Positions 27,651 through 36,617 of a stretch of DNA of 64,000 nt are shown here, in pieces (position 1 is the first letter of the stretch; the number at the start of each line of letters is the position of its first letter). Origin of the DNA: Verrucomicrobiota bacterium (GTDB lineage Bacteria; Verrucomicrobiota; Verrucomicrobiia; Verrucomicrobiales; Akkermansiaceae); contig RDYP01000008.1 in the NCBI GenBank assembly GCA_004293445.1, positions 62,001 through 126,000 on the forward strand, written 5' to 3'. The notes under the pieces are model-generated. The model saw only the letters and a list, made by a program, of their open reading frames with translations. It made no database searches and was not told the DNA's origin. The position numbers and the translations under genes were made by a program.

Positions 27651-30600
27651 TCAGACAGCCGCTTGATCGGGTTCGAGCGCCCGCAGACGGTCGAAGATCC
27701 CTTCGATGACGCTGTCTTTGCCTGCGAAAAGTTCATCGGGGCCACCCGCGTGAACATCGCTAAATGGCGGTTCGTAAAGTGCGGAAGCATCGACGATCCC
27801 GCGGGCGGCGAGTTGGTCGACCAAGGTTCCGATGAAGCGGATCTGAGCGGGATTGAGGTCGCGGATTTCGAGGAAGTCGGAGAACAAGGCCAGCACCGCG
27901 CTCCGGTCGAGGCCGACGGTCCGCCGCACGAAATGCGCGAGGGACGGCGATTCGGTCCGGCGCAGCAGGCCGTCGAGAAGGACCGGGCCGTGAGTTTCCC
28001 CGATCTCGACCAGCAAGGTCTCCAGCTGCTCCAGATCGGTCGGCGTCAGCGGCTGGTTCTGCCGCAGCTTGCCGATGACGAAGTGGTCGAGGTGGTTCCG
28101 CAGGTAGTCGCGGACCTTCTTCTCATACTGCGCGCCGGTCATCGTCGGGATCGGGATTGGCTCGCCTTCGCGGATGCCCTGGATCTCGTCCTTGAAGTTG
28201 GAATAGACGTTGCGGCGCTTCGACTTGTCGATGAAGCGGGTGAGGTCGCGCAGCCGCAGACGGACTTCCTCCAGCAGGTCGAGGTCGATGCCTTCCCAGA
28301 ACGACGGCTCCTGGATGGCCTGCAAATAGGCGAGCTGGGCCTTCACCGCGGGAATGGCGGTCTTCTCTTCCAACTGTGAGGCGATGCCGGTGACCTGATT
28401 GCGCAAGGTCTCGAAATGGCCGCCCATGCCCTCGACGTGGGCCAGTTGCATCCTCAGCAGGGTAAGGTCGAAGAGCCTCGGCTCGATGTCGTCCATCGGT
28501 GCCGCGCTCGGCAGTCCGGCAACCTCGTTGGCGAGCTGGTGGAGCGAACTCTTGTCGATCGCTCCTTCCCAGGTGCCGTCCTGCTGGAATCGCTCGACCG
28601 TCCGCAGATGCATCCGGACCAGGAAATTGTCGCGGTTCATCCCGGCGATCTCCGTCCGCAGGGTCTCCTTGACCGAGCCCAGCAGCTCGCCCTTGGGTGC
28701 GAGTTCGGGCTGTCCTTGCAGGTGGCCGATCAAGCGGACGCGCGAGTGGAAAAGCCGCACGCCGAGCGGTTGGGCGACGCTGCCCTCGATGCCTTCCGGG
28801 TTCTCGCGGAAGAAGTCGAAGTTGAAGCAGAAGTCGAAGACCCGGAAGTCCTGCTTGTCGAGGCCGGGGCCGTAGAGATCCGGGCAGAGGCGGGTGCCGC
28901 GGCCGATCATCTGCCAGAACTTCGTCCGCGAATAGACCGGCTTGAAAAATACCAAGTTCACCACCTCCGGCACGTCGATCCCGGTGTCGAGCATGTCGAC
29001 CGAGATCGCGATGTGCGGATTTTTGTCCGGGATCGAAAAATCGTCGATCAGGCTCTGCGGATACTTCGCCTTGTTGTCGATGATCCGTGCGAAGTGGCCC
29101 TTGAGGTGCGGGTAGTGGAAATTGAAGCGCTCCTCGATGAAGACCGCGTGGTCGTGGTTGCGGGCGAAAAGGATGGTCTTCCCGAGCCGATCGCCCTCCG
29201 CCACCTTGTGGCCGCGTTCCATCAGGGTCTGGAGCACCTTGTCCACCGTGTCGGCGTTGAAGAGCCACTTGTTCACGGCGGACGCGTTGACGGCGTCGGG
29301 CAGCCCCTCCTCGCCTTCGTCGCCCCAGTCGAGGCTTTCCCAGTGGGCCTTCTCCTCGTCGGAAAGCTGGTCGTAGCGGATGCCCTCGCGCGGGAACCGC
29401 ATGTCGATCTGCTCCGCGCGGGGCGGCACGAGGAAGCCGTCCTCCACGGCGCGCGACAGCTCGTAGGCATCGGTCGGGACGCCGGGCTCCAGGTCGAACA
29501 GCTCGTAGGTGTTGCGGTCGATCTCCTCGCGCGGGGTGGCGGTCAGGCCGACCAGCAGGCAGTCGAAGTAGGAGAAGATCGCCCGGTATTTCTGGTAGAT
29601 CGAGCGGTGGGCCTCATCGATGACGATGAGGTCGAAGTGCCCGACCGAGAAGCGGGCGGTGCCGTTCTTCGCGTCGTCGATCAGCCCGATCATCGTCGGG
29701 TAGGTGCAGGCATAGACGCGGCCCTCCTTGTCCTTCTCGGTCACCAGATTGACCGGGCTCGATTCCGGCAAGTGCTTCTTGAAGGCGTTCACCGCTTGGT
29801 TCACCAGCGAGACCCGGTCGGCGAGGAACAGCACGCGCTTCGCCCAGTTCGCGCGTTGCAGCAGATCGACCAGCGCGATCGCGGTGCGGGTCTTGCCGGT
29901 GCCGGTGGCTTGGACCAGCAGCGACTTGCGGCGGCCGGACATGAAGGTTTCGCCGATGCAGCCGATGGCGCGCTTCTGGTAGTAGCGGTCGATGATTGCG
30001 GCGTTGATCGCCGAGACGGCGAGTGCCTTGCGCGAGGTCCGCCGCTGGATCAGGCGTTCCAGCTCGTCCTTCTTGTAGAAGCCCTGCACCCGGCGCGGCG
30101 GGTAGAAGGCATCGTCCCACAGCCAGGTGTCGTAGCCGTTGGTGTAGAAGATCAGCGGACGTCGGCCGGTCATCGCTTCCAGGCAGTCGGCGTAGAGCTT
30201 CGCTTGCTGCTGGCCGGCGCGGGCATCGGCGGTCGTCTTCTTGGCCTCCACCACCGCCAGCGGCAGGCCGTCGTCGCCCCACAGCACGTAGTCGGCGTAA
30301 CCGATGCCTTTGGCGTTCGGCATGCCGCGGAGTTCGAATTCCCGGTCGCGCGGCTGGTCGAGCGGCCAACCGGCGCGCTTCAGTTCCAGGTCGATGAGAT
30401 GGGTTCTCGTCTCGGCTTCCGAGTAGTCGTGCGGATCGGGCTGCTGCTGGTTGGCGGCCTTCGCGGCGGCCAGTTCCGCGCGGAGCTGTTCGAGTTCGGC
30501 ATCCAGCTCTCCCAGCCGCTTGTCCTTCTCCGCCGCCGCCCGTGCGGAAGCTTCCAGCTCCGCTTCGAGTTCCGCCAAGCGTTTGCGGTCGAGCGGCGGG

Positions 30601-31052
30601 GCCGCCGCTGCGGTCGGGACCAGGGCCGGATCGTAGACCACCGCGGCGAAGCGGGCGGCGCCCTGCCGGGTGTAGGTGCGGGCCAGCCAATAGAGCACGT
30701 GGTGCAGCTCCTTGAGCGTCTGGAGCGCCTCGAACTGCGTGACCGGCCGCTGCTGGTGGACCGCCTGGTTGCCGGAGCGCTGGATGACCCGGGTCTTCTG
30801 GAAGACCGCCTCCGGCACCGCGGCCTGGAAGCTCGGCTCGTGGATCAACGCGCCGAGGGCCTGGTCGTAGGGCATCCGCAGCGAGCGATCGTGCTGGTAG
30901 AGCCACCGCACCGCCGCCTCCAGCGCGAAGCGGGCGTAAAAGCAGGCCGCCCGCGGGTCCGGCATCGCCAGCCGCTCCGCCCGCCGGCAAGGCTCCGCCA
31001 GTTCGGCGAACTCCGGGGAGAGGAAGGAGAAGTTGGAAGCGTCCGGTGGCAT
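27651..31052 (-). CDS. hsdR: Type I restriction enzyme, R subunit
   Basis: An 1133-residue restriction motor subunit. Residues 1-130 look like a DUF4145-type HEPN-like domain. A coiled-coil at about 150-200 (LAELEAELEASARAAAEKD) comes before the endonuclease domain with the D...ExK pattern (YADYVLW, LAVVEAKKTT). The helicase follows: Walker A ATGTGKTRTAI, DEAH in IVIDEAHRS, TATP in GLTATPREE, and motif VI QMIGRGTRLCPD. The C-terminal EcoEI-R-type domain fits the EcoEI/EcoR124 class. It cuts unmodified DNA after ATP-driven translocation, together with HsdM and HsdS. In this locus it is separated from hsdS by three accessory genes. Confidence 0.95.
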   Translation of the reverse strand: MPPDASNFSFLSPEFAELAEPCRRAERLAMPDPRAACFYARFALEAAVRWLYQHDRSLRMPYDQALGALIHEPSFQAAVPEAVFQKTRVIQRSGNQAVHQQRPVTQFEALQTLKELHHVLYWLARTYTRQGAARFAAVVYDPALVPTAAAAPPLDRKRLAELEAELEASARAAAEKDKRLGELDAELEQLRAELAAAKAANQQQPDPHDYSEAETRTHLIDLELKRAGWPLDQPRDREFELRGMPNAKGIGYADYVLWGDDGLPLAVVEAKKTTADARAGQQQAKLYADCLEAMTGRRPLIFYTNGYDTWLWDDAFYPPRRVQGFYKKDELERLIQRRTSRKALAVSAINAAIIDRYYQKRAIGCIGETFMSGRRKSLLVQATGTGKTRTAIALVDLLQRANWAKRVLFLADRVSLVNQAVNAFKKHLPESSPVNLVTEKDKEGRVYACTYPTMIGLIDDAKNGTARFSVGHFDLIVIDEAHRSIYQKYRAIFSYFDCLLVGLTATPREEIDRNTYELFDLEPGVPTDAYELSRAVEDGFLVPPRAEQIDMRFPREGIRYDQLSDEEKAHWESLDWGDEGEEGLPDAVNASAVNKWLFNADTVDKVLQTLMERGHKVAEGDRLGKTILFARNHDHAVFIEERFNFHYPHLKGHFARIIDNKAKYPQSLIDDFSIPDKNPHIAISVDMLDTGIDVPEVVNLVFFKPVYSRTKFWQMIGRGTRLCPDLYGPGLDKQDFRVFDFCFNFDFFRENPEGIEGSVAQPLGVRLFHSRVRLIGHLQGQPELAPKGELLGSVKETLRTEIAGMNRDNFLVRMHLRTVERFQQDGTWEGAIDKSSLHQLANEVAGLPSAAPMDDIEPRLFDLTLLRMQLAHVEGMGGHFETLRNQVTGIASQLEEKTAIPAVKAQLAYLQAIQEPSFWEGIDLDLLEEVRLRLRDLTRFIDKSKRRNVYSNFKDEIQGIREGEPIPIPTMTGAQYEKKVRDYLRNHLDHFVIGKLRQNQPLTPTDLEQLETLLVEIGETHGPVLLDGLLRRTESPSLAHFVRRTVGLDRSAVLALFSDFLEIRDLNPAQIRFIGTLVDQLAARGIVDASALYEPPFSDVHAGGPDELFAGKDSVIEGIFDRLRALEPDQAAV

Positions 31053-31130: not shown

Positions 31131-31457
31131 TCAACGAAGCGCCTGCCGCGGTTTGGCGGCTTCGCCGTGATTCATCAGACCGAGTTCAATCGCGCCCTGC
31201 ACCAGCACTTGAACAGCTGGCAGGCATCCTTTGAAGGTGATGCGGCGCAACAGCCCTTCGCCATGCTCCGCGAAGAGTCCGCGCAGCAAGCCGTTGACGA
31301 AGGAGCTGTTGGCCGACCGAATGCCGGAGAAATCGAGAATGACATCGTCAACGCCATCAAGCAGCGGGGCGAGGATTGCCTGTTTGAAGGCGTGCGCTTC
31401 CGCTCCGTCGGCAACCGAAGGGCCGAAGCTATCGCGGAGAATGAGGAGACGCTTCAT
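31131..31457 (-). CDS. STAS-like (DUF4325) domain protein
   Basis: A 108-residue protein that matches the STAS-like DUF4325 fold: MKRLLILRDSFGPSV at the start, DDVILDFSGIRSANSSFVNGL in the middle (the SANSSF segment is where the switch serine sits in STAS domains) and GCLPAVQVLVQ near the end. Such proteins usually accompany an HATPase-type kinase in bacterial defence or signalling operons; no such partner is present here. ATG 31457 is preferred over a TTG one codon upstream. It lies between DUF3800 and hsdR, with a repeat-rich 339-bp gap before it. Confidence 0.72.
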   Translation of the reverse strand: MKRLLILRDSFGPSVADGAEAHAFKQAILAPLLDGVDDVILDFSGIRSANSSFVNGLLRGLFAEHGEGLLRRITFKGCLPAVQVLVQGAIELGLMNHGEAAKPRQALR

Positions 31458-31516
31458 CAAAGCTCTGAAGATGACCGCAGGTCCGGAGATTTCAAGGTTG
31501 GGGGTGCGGGAGTCGT

Positions 31517-31768: not shown

Positions 31769-31788
31769 GGGGATCCGAAAGGATCCCC
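31769..31788 (-). terminator. GGGGATCC/GAAA hairpin after the DUF3800 gene
   Basis: A perfect 8-bp stem with a GAAA tetraloop on the plus strand begins 8 bases beyond the DUF3800 stop codon. No U-run follows on the minus strand, so intrinsic termination is uncertain; a processing or stability hairpin is the alternative. Confidence 0.4.
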
Positions 31789-31796
31789 TTACTCTT

Positions 31797-32564
31797 TCAA
31801 AGACGGACGATTCCATGCGGGTCACGGGGCGACGCATGACGGCAGAGAATGGGTTCTAAGCGGTTGAAGTAGTTCTGGCCCGACTTCTTCCGCATGTAGG
31901 CGGATGGGGCGAGTTGCTGGTAAAGCAGGAAGGCGCAGAGATCGGCGGACTGGATGAGGTAGGAGGTTTCGGAGTTCCTGAAGTTGGCGTCCTCGATGAT
32001 GGTCCGGAGCTGGAGGTTCCGGTAGCCTGGCCCATGCTGCGCTTGGTTCGCGACGGGATTGTAGGATCGCATCCGGCGTAGGAGCTGATTCAGTTTTTTC
32101 TGATCGGTGGCATCAGGGAAGAGCATCCCACGCTCGTCCGCGTAGCGCGGGCCGGGGAAGTTTCTCGCTGAGATCGTGTTTTCGAACCGCTGGACCAGTG
32201 CCTGCCACGCCCGGTCAAAAACGGGGTAGTCGGATGCCTTTCCCTGCTTGTCCACGACGATGTTGATGACCGCAAGATCGGGAAAGCCGGCGAGAACGTC
32301 CGCATAGAGCCGGAGGATCTCGAGTCGTTGATGCTTCGGAATACGGACCAGCTCTCCCGGGCTGTTGAGCATTTTGCCAGCGTGGATCTCCTCGCGCAGC
32401 TTGAAGCCAAAGCGTGCCTTGATGTCGCGCCGGAAAGCGATGAGTTCCTCGATCAATGCTTTCCACCTGAGTTCGTGAACCACCAACCCGGACAGCACGA
32501 AGTAGCGGGTCGGCGAGGCGCCCAAGCCCGCATCACCGCTCTCGTCGACATACATCAGATACAT
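31797..32564 (-). CDS. DUF3800 domain-containing protein
   Basis: A 255-residue protein of the DUF3800 family, recognised by MYLMYVDESGDAGLG at the N-terminus, NIVVDKQGKASDYPVFDRAW and the closing LIQSADLCAFLLYQ. The conserved Asp residues (VDES at the start and the C-terminal SADLCA) suggest an RNase-H-like metal-dependent nuclease fold. Members are frequent in mobile and defence islands. It lies between the protease-like gene (82-bp gap) and the STAS-like gene. Its function in the type I locus is unknown. Confidence 0.88.
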   Translation of the reverse strand: MYLMYVDESGDAGLGASPTRYFVLSGLVVHELRWKALIEELIAFRRDIKARFGFKLREEIHAGKMLNSPGELVRIPKHQRLEILRLYADVLAGFPDLAVINIVVDKQGKASDYPVFDRAWQALVQRFENTISARNFPGPRYADERGMLFPDATDQKKLNQLLRRMRSYNPVANQAQHGPGYRNLQLRTIIEDANFRNSETSYLIQSADLCAFLLYQQLAPSAYMRKKSGQNYFNRLEPILCRHASPRDPHGIVRL

Positions 32565-32645: not shown

Positions 32646-33608
32646 CTACCTCATGAAACGCGGGTGACCGAGCAGGCTTCTCCCGTAGGCCCGGCGGCCG
32701 GCATCGGATGGATAGCTCTCGGTGCCGGAAAGGATGCCGAGGAGAGTTCCGTCGCGGCCGAAAGCGGGCGATCCGGGGCGGAGAATTCGGCCCGAGAGGA
32801 CTCCCGTGACGAACGTCTTCAATGATTCGGAGGTGGACTGGCGGAAGTGCGAGATCACGCTGGCGTCGAATTGCACGGGAGAGAATGACCGCTCGCCGGA
32901 CATCACGTCGACCGCCTCGCCGGAATGGATAAAGCCGATCTCCTGACCCATCCACGTGGAGGCGGCAAATTGCACCGGCGTGCGGATGAGATTCGATTCA
33001 AGTTCGCCAAGCCCATGTTCGCGCCAGAGTTCCCGGACATGCTGCCACGCGGCTTCATCTCGTGCGCCCAAGGGAAACACGCGCAAGCCGAGCGCGCGAT
33101 TACCAGCCCCCGGATCGAATTCAAACCTCTCCATGCCTGCCGAGATGACGACCCGGCCACCCTTCGTTTCAGCAACCCGCGTCGCCAGTTGCAATGCTTC
33201 GTCGCCGACGAGAATTTCCGTTGCGGAGAGGATGCAGCCGTGTGCCACCGACTGGACGAGTTCCCTTCCTGCCAGCTCGCGGGAATGGAAGCCGCCATCA
33301 TAGACTACAGTCAGATCGATCGTTCGCTGGAGGTATTCAGCGACAGCGGTGGACCAGTCGCTGAGGCCGGGATCAGGTCGGGCAACCGACTCCTCGAGTT
33401 TCTTGAGAAGGGCCGCAGCTTTGGGTTCCGATTCCAGGGCTGCAATCCGTTGGTCGATCTCCTGACCCGCGAGTTGGTTCGCCATTTCGACCGCTGCAGA
33501 GACCCCGGGAATCTGAGTGCCGATGGTCTTTGCGAGATTCTCCGGCTGGAGTAGGAACTTGGCCTTGTCCCTGATCGATGGTTTGGGGGGATTATCGGGA
33601 GTGCTCAT
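32646..33608 (-). CDS. Trypsin-like fold protein with apparently degenerate active site
   Basis: A 320-residue protein starting MSTPDNPPKPS. Residues 1-90 are helical, with no signal peptide. From about residue 100 the pattern of a chymotrypsin-fold protease can be followed: GCILSATEILVG where the His (LTAxHV) should be, GNRALGLRVF where the Asp should be, and RPGSPAFGRDGTLLGILSG, which matches the GxSGSP...GxLVGI serine region. The serine is kept, but His and Asp appear replaced (Glu and Asn in my alignment), so it may be inactive. It starts 2 bp after hsdS stops, clearly in the same operon. A sensor or scaffold role in defence is possible. Confidence 0.55.
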   Translation of the reverse strand: MSTPDNPPKPSIRDKAKFLLQPENLAKTIGTQIPGVSAAVEMANQLAGQEIDQRIAALESEPKAAALLKKLEESVARPDPGLSDWSTAVAEYLQRTIDLTVVYDGGFHSRELAGRELVQSVAHGCILSATEILVGDEALQLATRVAETKGGRVVISAGMERFEFDPGAGNRALGLRVFPLGARDEAAWQHVRELWREHGLGELESNLIRTPVQFAASTWMGQEIGFIHSGEAVDVMSGERSFSPVQFDASVISHFRQSTSESLKTFVTGVLSGRILRPGSPAFGRDGTLLGILSGTESYPSDAGRRAYGRSLLGHPRFMR

Positions 33609-33610
33609 GG

Positions 33611-34762
33611 TCAAAGTTCCCCGCGGAAGGCGCGGTGCTGGAGGGAGGCGAAGAGGGCGTCCAGTTCGGCGAGGTGGGCGCGCTGCTGGGCCTTCTGACG
33701 CTCCACGGATTCCACGATGGCGGCGAAACGGCGTTGGAGGGGAAGCGGGGGAAGTGGGATTGCGACTTTTCGGAATTCTTTGGAGCGAATTCCAGTGACG
33801 GTTGATCCCGTGGACCGCTGATCCATTTGGCGAGTCGCAAATGGCATCGTGAGTGCCCACATCAAATAAATCGGCTCTAGCAGATCGCGCTTTGGTTGGA
33901 GAACAAGTAGGCGCTGGGCAAAAGCAGCCTTGTAGTCGGGAACCAAAGCAACCTCACCCATCGGTGCTTCTGTTGTGATGATCACGTCCTGAGGTGACGG
34001 TATCCCGCGGCGCATCCAAGATTCATAGGCTTCCGTAGCGATGAACTCGCTCGGTTCGTCCACGCCTTTGTTCTTCACGATTTTAGCTGTGATCAAAGGG
34101 ATTCCCGAAGGAGTCTTGTCCGGAGATTTGCCTCGGTAGTCGATGATCCGACCGACGGATTCTTCGATGGACATCGTCGGATGGGTTGGATTCGAGACGG
34201 GATCGCCGAAGAGGGTGAGGAAGGTGGATTGGAGGAGGGAGTCGAGTTGGGCGAGGGACTCGCGGCGCTTGGCCCGCAGCGCGTCCGCCGCATCCAGGAT
34301 GCCCGCGATCCGCTTTTGCTCGGCGAGGGGCGGGAGGGGGATTTCGATCTCAGCAAGCGCTGTTGGGCTTAGGCGAGGGAGGTTTGCGCCGGATGTCCGA
34401 GAGTTTGCATACTCAACCATCGAGGGTTGGCGCAGGAAGTAGCAGAGGAATCTTCGGTCCAAGTTCGAACCGGGAAGGATTGGAAGAATGTCCGTGCTAC
34501 AGATCCCGGTGAAATCGGGGCAGGTGATCTTGGCCAGATAAGGGCGAAGCTTCCCGTATAGCACGTGCTTCGCCGAGAATCTGAATTTCGAGCTGGCCAG
34601 CTCTCCGGCGTCGACAGGCTTCGCGCCGAGAATCTTGCCGCCGCTCTCGATGTGCTCAAGGCCGAGGTAAGGCGTTCCTTCTTCGATCTCTGCTGGTTGA
34701 ATCGCTGACCGTTCAATGACAGCGACCTTTGAGAGCGCGGTGGATTTCCAGCGAGAGATCAT
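33611..34762 (-). CDS. hsdS: Type I restriction-modification specificity subunit
   Basis: A 383-residue HsdS with the usual two-fold layout. TRD1 (about 1-150) is followed by the central conserved helix (PLPPLAEQKRIAGIL, RAKRRESLAQLDSLLQ). TRD2 (about 195-335) is followed by the second conserved helix (PLPPLPLQRRFAAIV, AQQRAHLAELDALF). Together they recognise a bipartite DNA site; the site cannot be read from sequence. ATG 34762 overlaps the stop of an upstream bridging frame (ATGA) and sits behind GGAGGGG, provided by the duplicated hsdM tail. The longer open frame upstream is that duplicated sequence. Confidence 0.94.
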   Translation of the reverse strand: MISRWKSTALSKVAVIERSAIQPAEIEEGTPYLGLEHIESGGKILGAKPVDAGELASSKFRFSAKHVLYGKLRPYLAKITCPDFTGICSTDILPILPGSNLDRRFLCYFLRQPSMVEYANSRTSGANLPRLSPTALAEIEIPLPPLAEQKRIAGILDAADALRAKRRESLAQLDSLLQSTFLTLFGDPVSNPTHPTMSIEESVGRIIDYRGKSPDKTPSGIPLITAKIVKNKGVDEPSEFIATEAYESWMRRGIPSPQDVIITTEAPMGEVALVPDYKAAFAQRLLVLQPKRDLLEPIYLMWALTMPFATRQMDQRSTGSTVTGIRSKEFRKVAIPLPPLPLQRRFAAIVESVERQKAQQRAHLAELDALFASLQHRAFRGEL

Positions 34763-34810
34763 CCCAGCAACCCCTCCAGTTCCTTCCGCCCGGCGGCGAT
34801 TTCTTCTTCG
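34759..34810. repeat. 52-bp direct repeat, copy A (duplicate of the hsdM 3' end)
   Basis: Identical to 35085-35136 except for one base (position 27 of the repeat, C versus G). It encodes, on the minus strand, the last residues EEEIAAGRKELEGLLG of HsdM plus the stop, and supplies the hsdS ribosome site. Confidence 0.95.
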
Positions 34811-35088
34811 TGCCTCATCGTGATTCTCTTCAGTGCCAAGGGCGCGGGATTCCTCAGCCCGGGGTATCGCCCCGGGTGGCAGCCCCCCGAAACATCCCCG
34901 CGCCCCAAGGGGGTGCGATCCGGGGGCGTGATGCCGGGCCGGGAAGCGTGTCGCAACCCTTCGGGCCGCCGGTCGTCGTGGGTTGCGAACCCGGGGCGAT
35001 GCCCCGGGCTGAGGGATGATGGCCCTTTGGGCCGGGAGAGTCGGTGGCGGCGACACCGCATTCCCTGGTGGCGGTGGTTCACGCTCAT
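34759..35088 (-). CDS. Bridging reading frame through the inserted element
   Basis: A 109-codon frame whose ATG overlaps the hsdM stop (ATGA at 35085-35088) and whose stop overlaps the hsdS start (ATGA at 34759-34762). The interior is Arg/Pro/Gly/His-rich and reads like translated repeat DNA. The last 17 residues repeat the HsdM C-terminus. It is probably not a functional protein, but its translation could carry ribosomes from hsdM to hsdS. Confidence 0.35.
   Translation of the reverse strand: MSVNHRHQGMRCRRHRLSRPKGPSSLSPGHRPGFATHDDRRPEGLRHASRPGITPPDRTPLGRGDVSGGCHPGRYPGLRNPAPLALKRITMRHEEEIAAGRKELEGLLG
34811..35084. mobile_element. Palindromic REP/MITE-like element between hsdM and hsdS
   Basis: A 274-bp GC-rich segment flanked by the 52-bp direct repeats. 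It carries 25-bp inverted arms at 34853-34877 and 34989-35013 (one mismatch), each itself nearly palindromic around CCCGGGG..CCCCGGG, with weaker complementarity further out (CCAAGGGC against GCCCTTTGG). No transposase is encoded, so it would have to be moved in trans. The type resembles interspersed palindromic repeats common in Verrucomicrobiota genomes (from memory, not checked). Confidence 0.6.
34853..35013. repeat. Inverted repeat arms of the element
   Basis: Left arm 34853-34877 and right arm 34989-35013 are reverse complements at 24 of 25 positions. The whole interval could fold into one long cruciform with small side hairpins. Confidence 0.85.
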
Positions 35089-35136
35089 CCCAGCAACCCC
35101 TCCAGTTCCTTGCGCCCGGCGGCGATTTCTTCTTCG
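35085..35136. repeat. 52-bp direct repeat, copy B (3' end of hsdM)
   Basis: The in-place copy of the repeat. Together with copy A at 34759-34810 it brackets the 274-bp palindromic element. Confidence 0.95.
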
Positions 35137-36617
35137 AGTTTCGCGAGGCGGGCGAGGATGTCGCCCGGGGTGTCGTGCTCGATGCTTTCGTGGACGACTT
35201 CCTTGTAGCGGTTGAGCGAGAGGTCGTAGTCGTTGGCGGCGATCTCGGCTTTCGGCACCAGGAAGCTTTGATCCGTGCGCTGGCGCTCCGTCTCCGCCAT
35301 CTTCGATCCACCATCTCCCATCTGCCATCCCTTCCACCGCTGGAGCAGGTCGGGGAGGTCGGACTTGTCCTGCGGAGTGCGCTTGTCGTCGAGGCTGAAG
35401 CCGTCGGCCTTCATGTCGTAGAACCAGACCCGGTCGGTGCCGCCGGAGTTGGTCTTGGTGAAGAGCAGGATGGCGGTGGAAACGCCGGCGTAGGGCTTGA
35501 AGACGCCGGAGGGCATGGAAATGACGGCGTCGAGCTTCTGCTCCTCCACCAGCAGGCGGCGGAGCTGCTTGTGGGCCTTGGACGAGCCGAAGAGGACGCC
35601 ATCCGGCACGATGACGGCGGCGCGGCCGCCGGTTTTCAGCAGGCGGAGGAAGAGGGCGAGGAAGAGCAGCTCGGTCTTCTTGGTTTTGACGATCTGGAGC
35701 AGGTCCTTGGCGGTGGCCTCGTAGTCGAGGCTGCCGGCGAAGGGCGGATTGGCGAGGAGGACGGTGTAGGCTTCCTCGTCGCCGGCGTGGGCTTCCTCCA
35801 GGCTGTCCTTGTAGCGGATGTCGGGGTTTTCCACGCCGTGGAGGAGCATGTTCATGCTGCCGATGCGGAGCATGGTGGAATCGAAGTCGTAGCCGTGGAA
35901 GGTCTGCTCGTTGAAGCGGCGGCGGGATTTCTCGTCGGCGAAGATTTCCGCGCCGTGGTGCTCCCGCAGGTGCTCGGCGCTGGCGACGAGGAAGCCGCAG
36001 GTGCCGCAGGCGGGATCGCAGATGAGGTCCTGCGGCTTGGGGTCGATCATTTCCACCATCAGCCGGATGATGTGGCGCGGGGTGCGGAACTGACCGTTCT
36101 GCCCGGCGGCGGCGATCTTGCCGAGCATGTATTCGTAGAGGTCGCCCTTGGTATCGCGGTCGGCCATGTCGATGCCGTCGAGCTGGTCGATGACGTTGGC
36201 GAGGAGACGGGGCGAGGGGAACATGAAGAGGGCGTCCTTCATGTGGTGGGCGTAGGTGGAGTCGCTGCCGTCCTCGCCGGTGCCCTTGCCGAGGGTCTTG
36301 AGGAAGGGGAAGACCTCGTCGCGGACGATCTCGAAGACGGTCTCCGGGGCGTAGTCGCGGAAGCGGGACCAGCGGAGGTCGTCGTAGCGCCGGCCTTCGC
36401 GGGAGGCGGGATTGAGGCCGAAGGGGAAGATCGGGTCCTCGATCAGCTGACCGGTGCGGGCGGCCTTGCGCTCGCGCAGGGTGTGGAGTTCGTCGAGCCG
36501 CTTGATGAAGAGCAGGTAGGTGAGCTGCTCGATGACGGTGAGCGGGTTGGCGATGCCGCCGGCCCACATGGCGTCCCAGATGCGGTCGATTTTGGATTTG
36601 AGTTCCCCGGTGATCAT
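35085..36617 (-). CDS. hsdM: Type I restriction-modification DNA methyltransferase subunit
   Basis: A 510-residue N6-adenine methyltransferase. The N-terminal HsdM helical domain (IDRIWDAMWAGG, YLLFIKRLDELHT) occupies about 1-140. The catalytic domain has the SAM-binding DPACGTCGFLV (motif I) and the NPPF catalytic motif (LLANPPFAGSL). The C-terminal coiled tail (LARLAKLEEEIAAGRKEL) contacts HsdS. The start is ATG 36617 (MITGELKSK); the longer frame upstream overlaps the divergent LamG-like gene. The stop overlaps a bridging frame, and a second copy of its last 52 bp follows 326 bp downstream. It methylates host DNA and, with HsdS and HsdR, forms the restriction complex. Confidence 0.95.
   Translation of the reverse strand: MITGELKSKIDRIWDAMWAGGIANPLTVIEQLTYLLFIKRLDELHTLRERKAARTGQLIEDPIFPFGLNPASREGRRYDDLRWSRFRDYAPETVFEIVRDEVFPFLKTLGKGTGEDGSDSTYAHHMKDALFMFPSPRLLANVIDQLDGIDMADRDTKGDLYEYMLGKIAAAGQNGQFRTPRHIIRLMVEMIDPKPQDLICDPACGTCGFLVASAEHLREHHGAEIFADEKSRRRFNEQTFHGYDFDSTMLRIGSMNMLLHGVENPDIRYKDSLEEAHAGDEEAYTVLLANPPFAGSLDYEATAKDLLQIVKTKKTELLFLALFLRLLKTGGRAAVIVPDGVLFGSSKAHKQLRRLLVEEQKLDAVISMPSGVFKPYAGVSTAILLFTKTNSGGTDRVWFYDMKADGFSLDDKRTPQDKSDLPDLLQRWKGWQMGDGGSKMAETERQRTDQSFLVPKAEIAANDYDLSLNRYKEVVHESIEHDTPGDILARLAKLEEEIAAGRKELEGLLG

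Follow-up and report, generated by a model that had tools for sequence, protein, structure and literature searches.

What would a trypsin-like protein without a catalytic triad do inside a type I restriction-modification operon? This question is raised by a gene, here called X, located in a window of 64,000 nucleotides (the whole stretch of DNA that was analyzed), in which the genes on the minus strand follow the order hsdM, hsdS, X, DUF3800, STAS/DUF4325 and hsdR (Table 1). Judging from the catalytic motifs recognized in the translated genes, the type I restriction-modification operon formed by hsdM, hsdS and hsdR is apparently intact. The DUF3800 protein, of a family that the literature presents as nucleases with an RNase H fold (PMC10910872, PMC12669027), carries the invariant Asp7 and Asp208.

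The sequence-only reading that drew attention to X described it as an inactive trypsin-like protein in a type I operon, tightly coupled to hsdS and acting inside the cell, and all of this was sustained. No intact triad is found on proper alignment, only 2 bp separate the hsdS stop from the ATG of X, and neither a signal peptide nor a transmembrane segment is evident in the Kyte-Doolittle profile (19-residue window; highest mean of 1.36, with 0.78 in the N-terminal region), in agreement with a cytoplasmic protein. The open reading frame had also been correctly delimited, but without a strand: it is open on the minus strand, and the plus-strand frame in this region contains stops and is not open. 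X is a real coding gene: a 53% identical relative (L003) exists in another Verrucomicrobia MAG, and the two differ mostly at third codon positions (see below).

Table 1. Features of the restriction operon and of gene X, in window coordinates.
Feature	Position	Strand	Basis or remark
hsdM, type I methyltransferase	35085..36617	minus	domain searches; catalytic motifs kept, no internal stops
hsdS, type I specificity subunit	33611..34762	minus	domain searches
X, pseudo-protease gene, 320 aa	32646..33608	minus	uninterrupted 320-codon ORF; relative L003
N-terminal helical segment of X, residues 1-78	33375..33608	minus	alignments; helices in low-confidence model
Trypsin/HtrA-like pseudo-protease domain of X, residues 79-320	32649..33374	minus	homology to L004/L069 domains, L069 fold, profile comparison
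Ala138 codon of X, at catalytic His57 position	33195..33197	minus	alignment
Gly174 codon of X, at catalytic Asp102 position	33087..33089	minus	alignment
Pro278 codon of X, at catalytic Ser195 position	32775..32777	minus	alignment
DUF3800 gene, 81 bp behind X; putative nuclease with RNase H fold	31797..32564	minus	Pfam E 1.8e-18
STAS/DUF4325 gene, conserved hsdR partner in several related operons	31131..31460	minus	domain searches
hsdR, type I restriction subunit, N-terminal DUF4145	27651..31052	minus	nuclease and helicase motifs kept, no internal stops

Fold and catalytic positions of X

No credible match to X was returned by Pfam, NCBIfam, PADLOC or PDB sequences, and an AF2 model of the full-length protein, built from two sequences, was poor (pLDDT of 38), so that its ranking of HtrA proteins first (E of 2.5e-3) is only suggestive. 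The homologous domain of a distant relative, L069, was modeled with AlphaFold from four sequences to a mean pLDDT of 53, with a confident first barrel (strand-strand-strand-helix-strand-strand-strand; block means of 65-89 over residues 11-100) and a second barrel of low confidence. When this model was compared with the PDB using Foldseek, 199 matches were obtained at E <= 0.001 (best E of 5e-6), and the best 50 of these 199 were all of the HtrA/DegS type. A second structural comparison placed the MamO protease domain first (Z of 10.0, rmsd of 3.0 A, 127 aligned residues), in an effective tie with DegS, MucD and HtrA, since all lie within one Z unit.

Moreover, a profile of the four family domains was compared with the trypsin-like domains of the source genome and of one related genome. 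It scored 31.9 locally and 24.7 globally, against 12.6 +/- 2.5 (maximum 24.5) and 3.3 +/- 2.1 (maximum 10.8), respectively, in 200 shuffled-column controls, with much of the score coming from the C-terminal SGxP...DGxLVGI stretch, which is CBS-domain-like too. The matches of the family profile to PDB sequences were in fact CBS domains and were rejected, as they rest on this short generic stretch. For the same reason, the N-terminal half of the profile was compared alone, which put the His57 region in register and scored 16.3, only slightly above the null (maximum of 15.2 in 60 shuffles). Overall, homology to the L069 domain and the profile comparison make it very probable that X adopts a chymotrypsin/HtrA-like fold (PA clan), and the fold originally proposed is thus retained.

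Among proteins of this fold, MamO (PDB 5hm9) resembles X in lacking a working triad, and its role is non-catalytic (PMC4794232). However, X departs from HtrA, DegS and MamO in having no evident signal peptide and no recognized PDZ domain, in its location within a restriction operon, and in its very low identity to HtrA proteins.

Triad positions were read from MAFFT and HH-suite alignments, in which the surroundings of His57 and Asp102 are less certain than those of Ser195. At these three positions X has Ala138, Gly174 and Pro278, and therefore lacks the His-Asp-Ser triad of an active S1 serine protease. The replacement of His and Asp had been recognized from the sequence, but the sites named for it, TEIL and NRAL, are a few residues off: Ala138 lies in LVGDEAL and Gly174 in NRALGL. 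The Ser of GSPAF, in turn, had been taken for the retained catalytic residue, which proved mistaken, as RPGSPAF aligns with GNSGGP in such a way that Pro278 falls at Ser195 and Ser280 at residue 197, and L003 has Ala at 195. An intact triad assembled from the TEIL, NRAL and GSPAF placements was also considered and rejected, because it disagrees with the alignments. The corresponding residues are Ala/Gly/Ala in L003, Ser/Asp/Ser in L004 and His/Gly/Glu in L069, so that the triad is intact in none of the four family members and broken differently in each. Since each member retains a different remainder, the pattern fits loss of catalysis as a condition of the family, and not as one accident. That X is a catalytically dead pseudo-protease, by loss of its triad, is well supported.

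Relatives of X

The family is rare, with four members, X included, in everything searched. A single close relative, L003, with 53% identity over 293 residues, emerged from a scan of a species-genome collection (84,980 species); beyond residue 293 its predicted protein diverges from X, perhaps via an insertion. L003 follows, after 11 bp, an incomplete hsdS that is broken across frames, in a locus that is eroding. Profile searches of genomes, sampled within one phylum, added two distant relatives, L004 (for which the reciprocal match was confirmed) and L069. The N-terminal segment of X (residues 1-78) is common to L003; in L004 and L069 its place is taken by an HNH nuclease domain (Pfam HNH, E of 4e-7 and 2e-8, respectively), fused to a C-terminal domain with homology to residues 79-320 of X. 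Pairwise blastp gave single-comparison E-values of 4e-9 for X and L069, 6e-9 for X and L004, and 2e-28 for L004 and L069.

Neither the L004 nor the L069 locus has adjoining restriction genes: L069 sits between genes of an apparent efflux operon, with a convergent DUF3800 gene 89 bp away, and L004 has no DUF3800 nearby. The linkage of homologues to restriction, which the sequence-only reading had named as a check, is thus confirmed for L003, which follows an hsdS remnant, and fails for L004 and L069. As relatives occur outside restriction loci, the pseudo-protease domain needs no type I system.

The loss of all three catalytic residues, together with the eroding L003 locus and the active trypsin-nuclease pairs known from other systems (PMC12799240), would also agree with X being a decaying remnant of such a defense pair that is no longer functional. 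We regard this as improbable. The frame of X is intact over its 320 codons, the differences between X and L003 fall mostly at third codon positions (0.35/0.28/0.60 for first, second and third), the two proteins keep long identical blocks such as WMGQEIGFIHSGEA and QFDASVISHFR, and inactive domains are maintained in the HNH fusions as well.

Other candidate relatives were discarded. Searches of plasmids, phages and viral contigs with X, and of plasmids with its N-terminal segment, gave no credible relative; the plasmid matches to residues 178-258 (E. coli, E. fergusonii and Salmonella, E of 0.06-5) are mostly unannotated stretches immediately upstream of DUF4942 genes and were attributed to chance. 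Weak genome matches such as G016 and G023 are short and were not confirmed as relatives, the G023 protein having only the SGxP...DGxLVGI stretch in common with X. Separately, the apparent efflux (MacA/MacB-like) operon at L072 (7804-9725) encloses a DUF3800 gene together with an HNH-pseudotrypsin gene convergent to it, in the manner of an inserted cassette, and this DUF3800 protein is 47% identical to the one encoded between hsdM and hsdS in L051. Related HNH proteins of approximately 165-190 aa (L020, L073, L074 and L077) have short, differing C-terminal parts and no pseudotrypsin domain, from which the C-terminal module of these HNH proteins appears to be exchanged.

Cargo slot and possible function

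Operons with the same backbone were collected from genomes of the same family through HsdM orthologues at 67-80% identity, and the slot was surveyed from hsdS to hsdR or to the contig end (the sequence ends too early in L054 and L058). No recognizable X was found in these operons, and near relatives of the X operon hold other effector-like genes in the slot: a HipA-like kinase in L052, and another with DUF3037 in L056; a SIR2-like protein with STAS in L053; HATPase with STAS in L057; a 438-aa protein with HATPase and STAS in L050, and a split relative of it with HATPase, STAS and DUF3037 in L051; a helicase with other genes in L059; and, on our reading of the sequence, what may be an AlbA/Schlafen-like protein in L055. 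X behaves as embedded cargo, lying between hsdS and hsdR and varying among orthologous operons. Because unrelated effector-like genes fill the same slot in operons of the same family, we consider X to be cargo of this slot, and its description as a pseudo-protease in a cargo slot is highly likely to be correct.

The tight spacing behind hsdS, and the same gene order in L003, could also be explained if X regulated the type I enzyme, for instance by restraining HsdR or HsdMS during establishment or stress. Nevertheless, nine near operons, with HsdM 67-80% identical, are devoid of X, so the type I enzyme does not need it, and family members exist without hsd genes, which makes such a regulator rather unlikely. 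The specificity modulator that had been suggested for X found no support.

It had been stated, in addition, that no role was described for such a protein in type I systems. This misses the context, as the slot is known for embedded defense genes. PrrC of EcoprrI (type IC) is ordinarily kept sequestered by the type I complex until infection with T4 releases it; like X, it is encoded by an accessory gene of a type I operon, and it is a possible restriction guard (PMC3874165, PMC12707154). However, PrrC is a tRNA anticodon nuclease, whereas X has no recognizable nuclease; searches of Pfam, NCBIfam and PADLOC did not find the anticodon nuclease domain in X, and no sequence relation was found between the two. 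Genes darTG2, precisely between hsdS and hsdR at a site that its authors suggest to be a recombination hotspot (PMC12255303), and tgvAB, inside a Vibrio type I operon (PMC11411939), are likewise defense genes embedded in type I loci, but differ from X in their proteins and mechanisms.

Two further comparisons concern the protein itself. In the trypsin-nuclease pairs of Hachiman, AVAST, Lamassu and DRT, a trypsin-like protein is encoded beside a nuclease gene in a defense locus, as here, but the active protease cleaves an MBL-fold pro-nuclease (PMC12799240), whereas the triad of X is lost and its neighbors are hsdS and DUF3800, with no adjacent MBL-fold nuclease. Kaur et al. proposed that inactive trypsin domains in conflict systems act as dominant-negative regulators or peptide-binding domains (PMC7159879). 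Those of the vWA-MoxR systems share the loss of catalysis with X but are fused to vWA proteins (PMC7159879), and no vWA or MoxR gene was recognized among the genes of the X operon (hsdM, hsdS, X, DUF3800, STAS and hsdR).

Beyond the well-supported gene, fold, triad loss and cargo position, we infer a binding role for X, its pairing with DUF3800 and a trigger. Since catalysis is lost and long conserved blocks are kept, the simplest view is that X still has the ability of its ancestors to bind peptides or proteins. In relatives the same domain is fused to HNH, which suggests control over a nuclease; as a helical segment replaces HNH in X and a DUF3800 gene with Asp7 and Asp208 follows, a sensor or adaptor of DUF3800 is favored. 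Our preferred reading, to which we give a probability of roughly 0.4, is therefore that X is a non-catalytic sensor/adaptor cargo controlling an effector, most likely the adjacent DUF3800 nuclease, as a second line of defense to restriction. The target recognized by the pseudo-protease domain would be a peptide or protein of phage origin or else a subunit of the type I enzyme, and the helical N-terminal segment would relay the bound state to the effector, for which DUF3800 is the likeliest candidate by analogy with the HNH-fused relatives. The module would add its defense to that of restriction and, by analogy with PrrC, may fire once restriction is inhibited; plausible cues are a phage protein and a blocked type I complex. 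The sensor or second effector for failed restriction that the sequence-only reading had offered is therefore still plausible. The sensor-of-nuclease mechanism in itself is tentative. DUF3800 adjoins the domain in the window and at L069, but these are two loci only, one of them convergent, and the DUF3800 proteins are only distantly alike.

It is somewhat unlikely, if less so than the regulator discussed above, that X is an independent embedded defense gene, for example toxic or phage-binding, with the slot serving as a shared integration or expression site without any tie to restriction or DUF3800. The unrelated cargo in related operons and the occurrence of the domain outside restriction loci agree with this, as does the finding that TgvAB protects without the restriction activity of HsdR (PMC11411939). 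However, X has no recognizable effector domain, unlike its HNH-fused relatives, and its linkage to hsdS is common to L003, at 53% identity.

The hsdS-hsdR slot, pseudo-trypsin domains in conflict systems and trypsin-nuclease pairs with an active protease are already known. In the published, openly accessible literature searched, we found no description of a pseudo-HtrA protein in a type I operon, nor of an HNH-pseudotrypsin fusion. It is unlikely, though conceivable, that these proteins form a new class, namely a restriction-coupled pseudo-HtrA sensor in which a phage peptide or an inhibited type I complex would activate DUF3800 in trans, with the HNH relatives acting in cis. If the sensor/adaptor reading is true, antiviral loci, a type I restriction operon among them, would have put a protease fold stripped of catalysis to new use in binding or sensing on behalf of nucleases, the concept of genes that, like PrrC, guard restriction would be extended, and DUF3800, whose role in defense has so far merely been suggested, would gain a testable partner.

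Further observations on the operon

Among the slot proteins, the SIR2-like cargo of L053 (7899-9500), inside its type I operon, strongly matches the PADLOC candidate family PDC-S25 (E of 1.9e-145). The 438-aa protein of L050 (9187-10503) has no Pfam or PADLOC match, and its relative in L051 (4693-6018), split in two frames, has no Pfam match. The STAS/DUF4325 gene of the window stands alone, and in L050, L051 and L057 a HATPase partner precedes STAS; the gap upstream of the window gene showed no remnant of a HATPase. Just downstream of DUF3800 there is a strong GGGGATCC hairpin (31769-31788), but it is no clear terminator of the operon, because its T-rich tail is present only on the plus strand.

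Moreover, the space between hsdM and hsdS also holds genes in related operons: a YhcG-type nuclease in L053, L056 and L057 (by Pfam) and in L054 (by sequence likeness), and DUF3800 in L051. The window carries the 3' end of hsdM in duplicate (34762-35130), with one copy at the hsdM stop and the other just before the hsdS start, flanking approximately 320 bp of GC-rich sequence. As hsdM and a similar repeated hsdM tail enclose the YhcG-type gene in L053 and L054, the window may hold an emptied second cargo slot.
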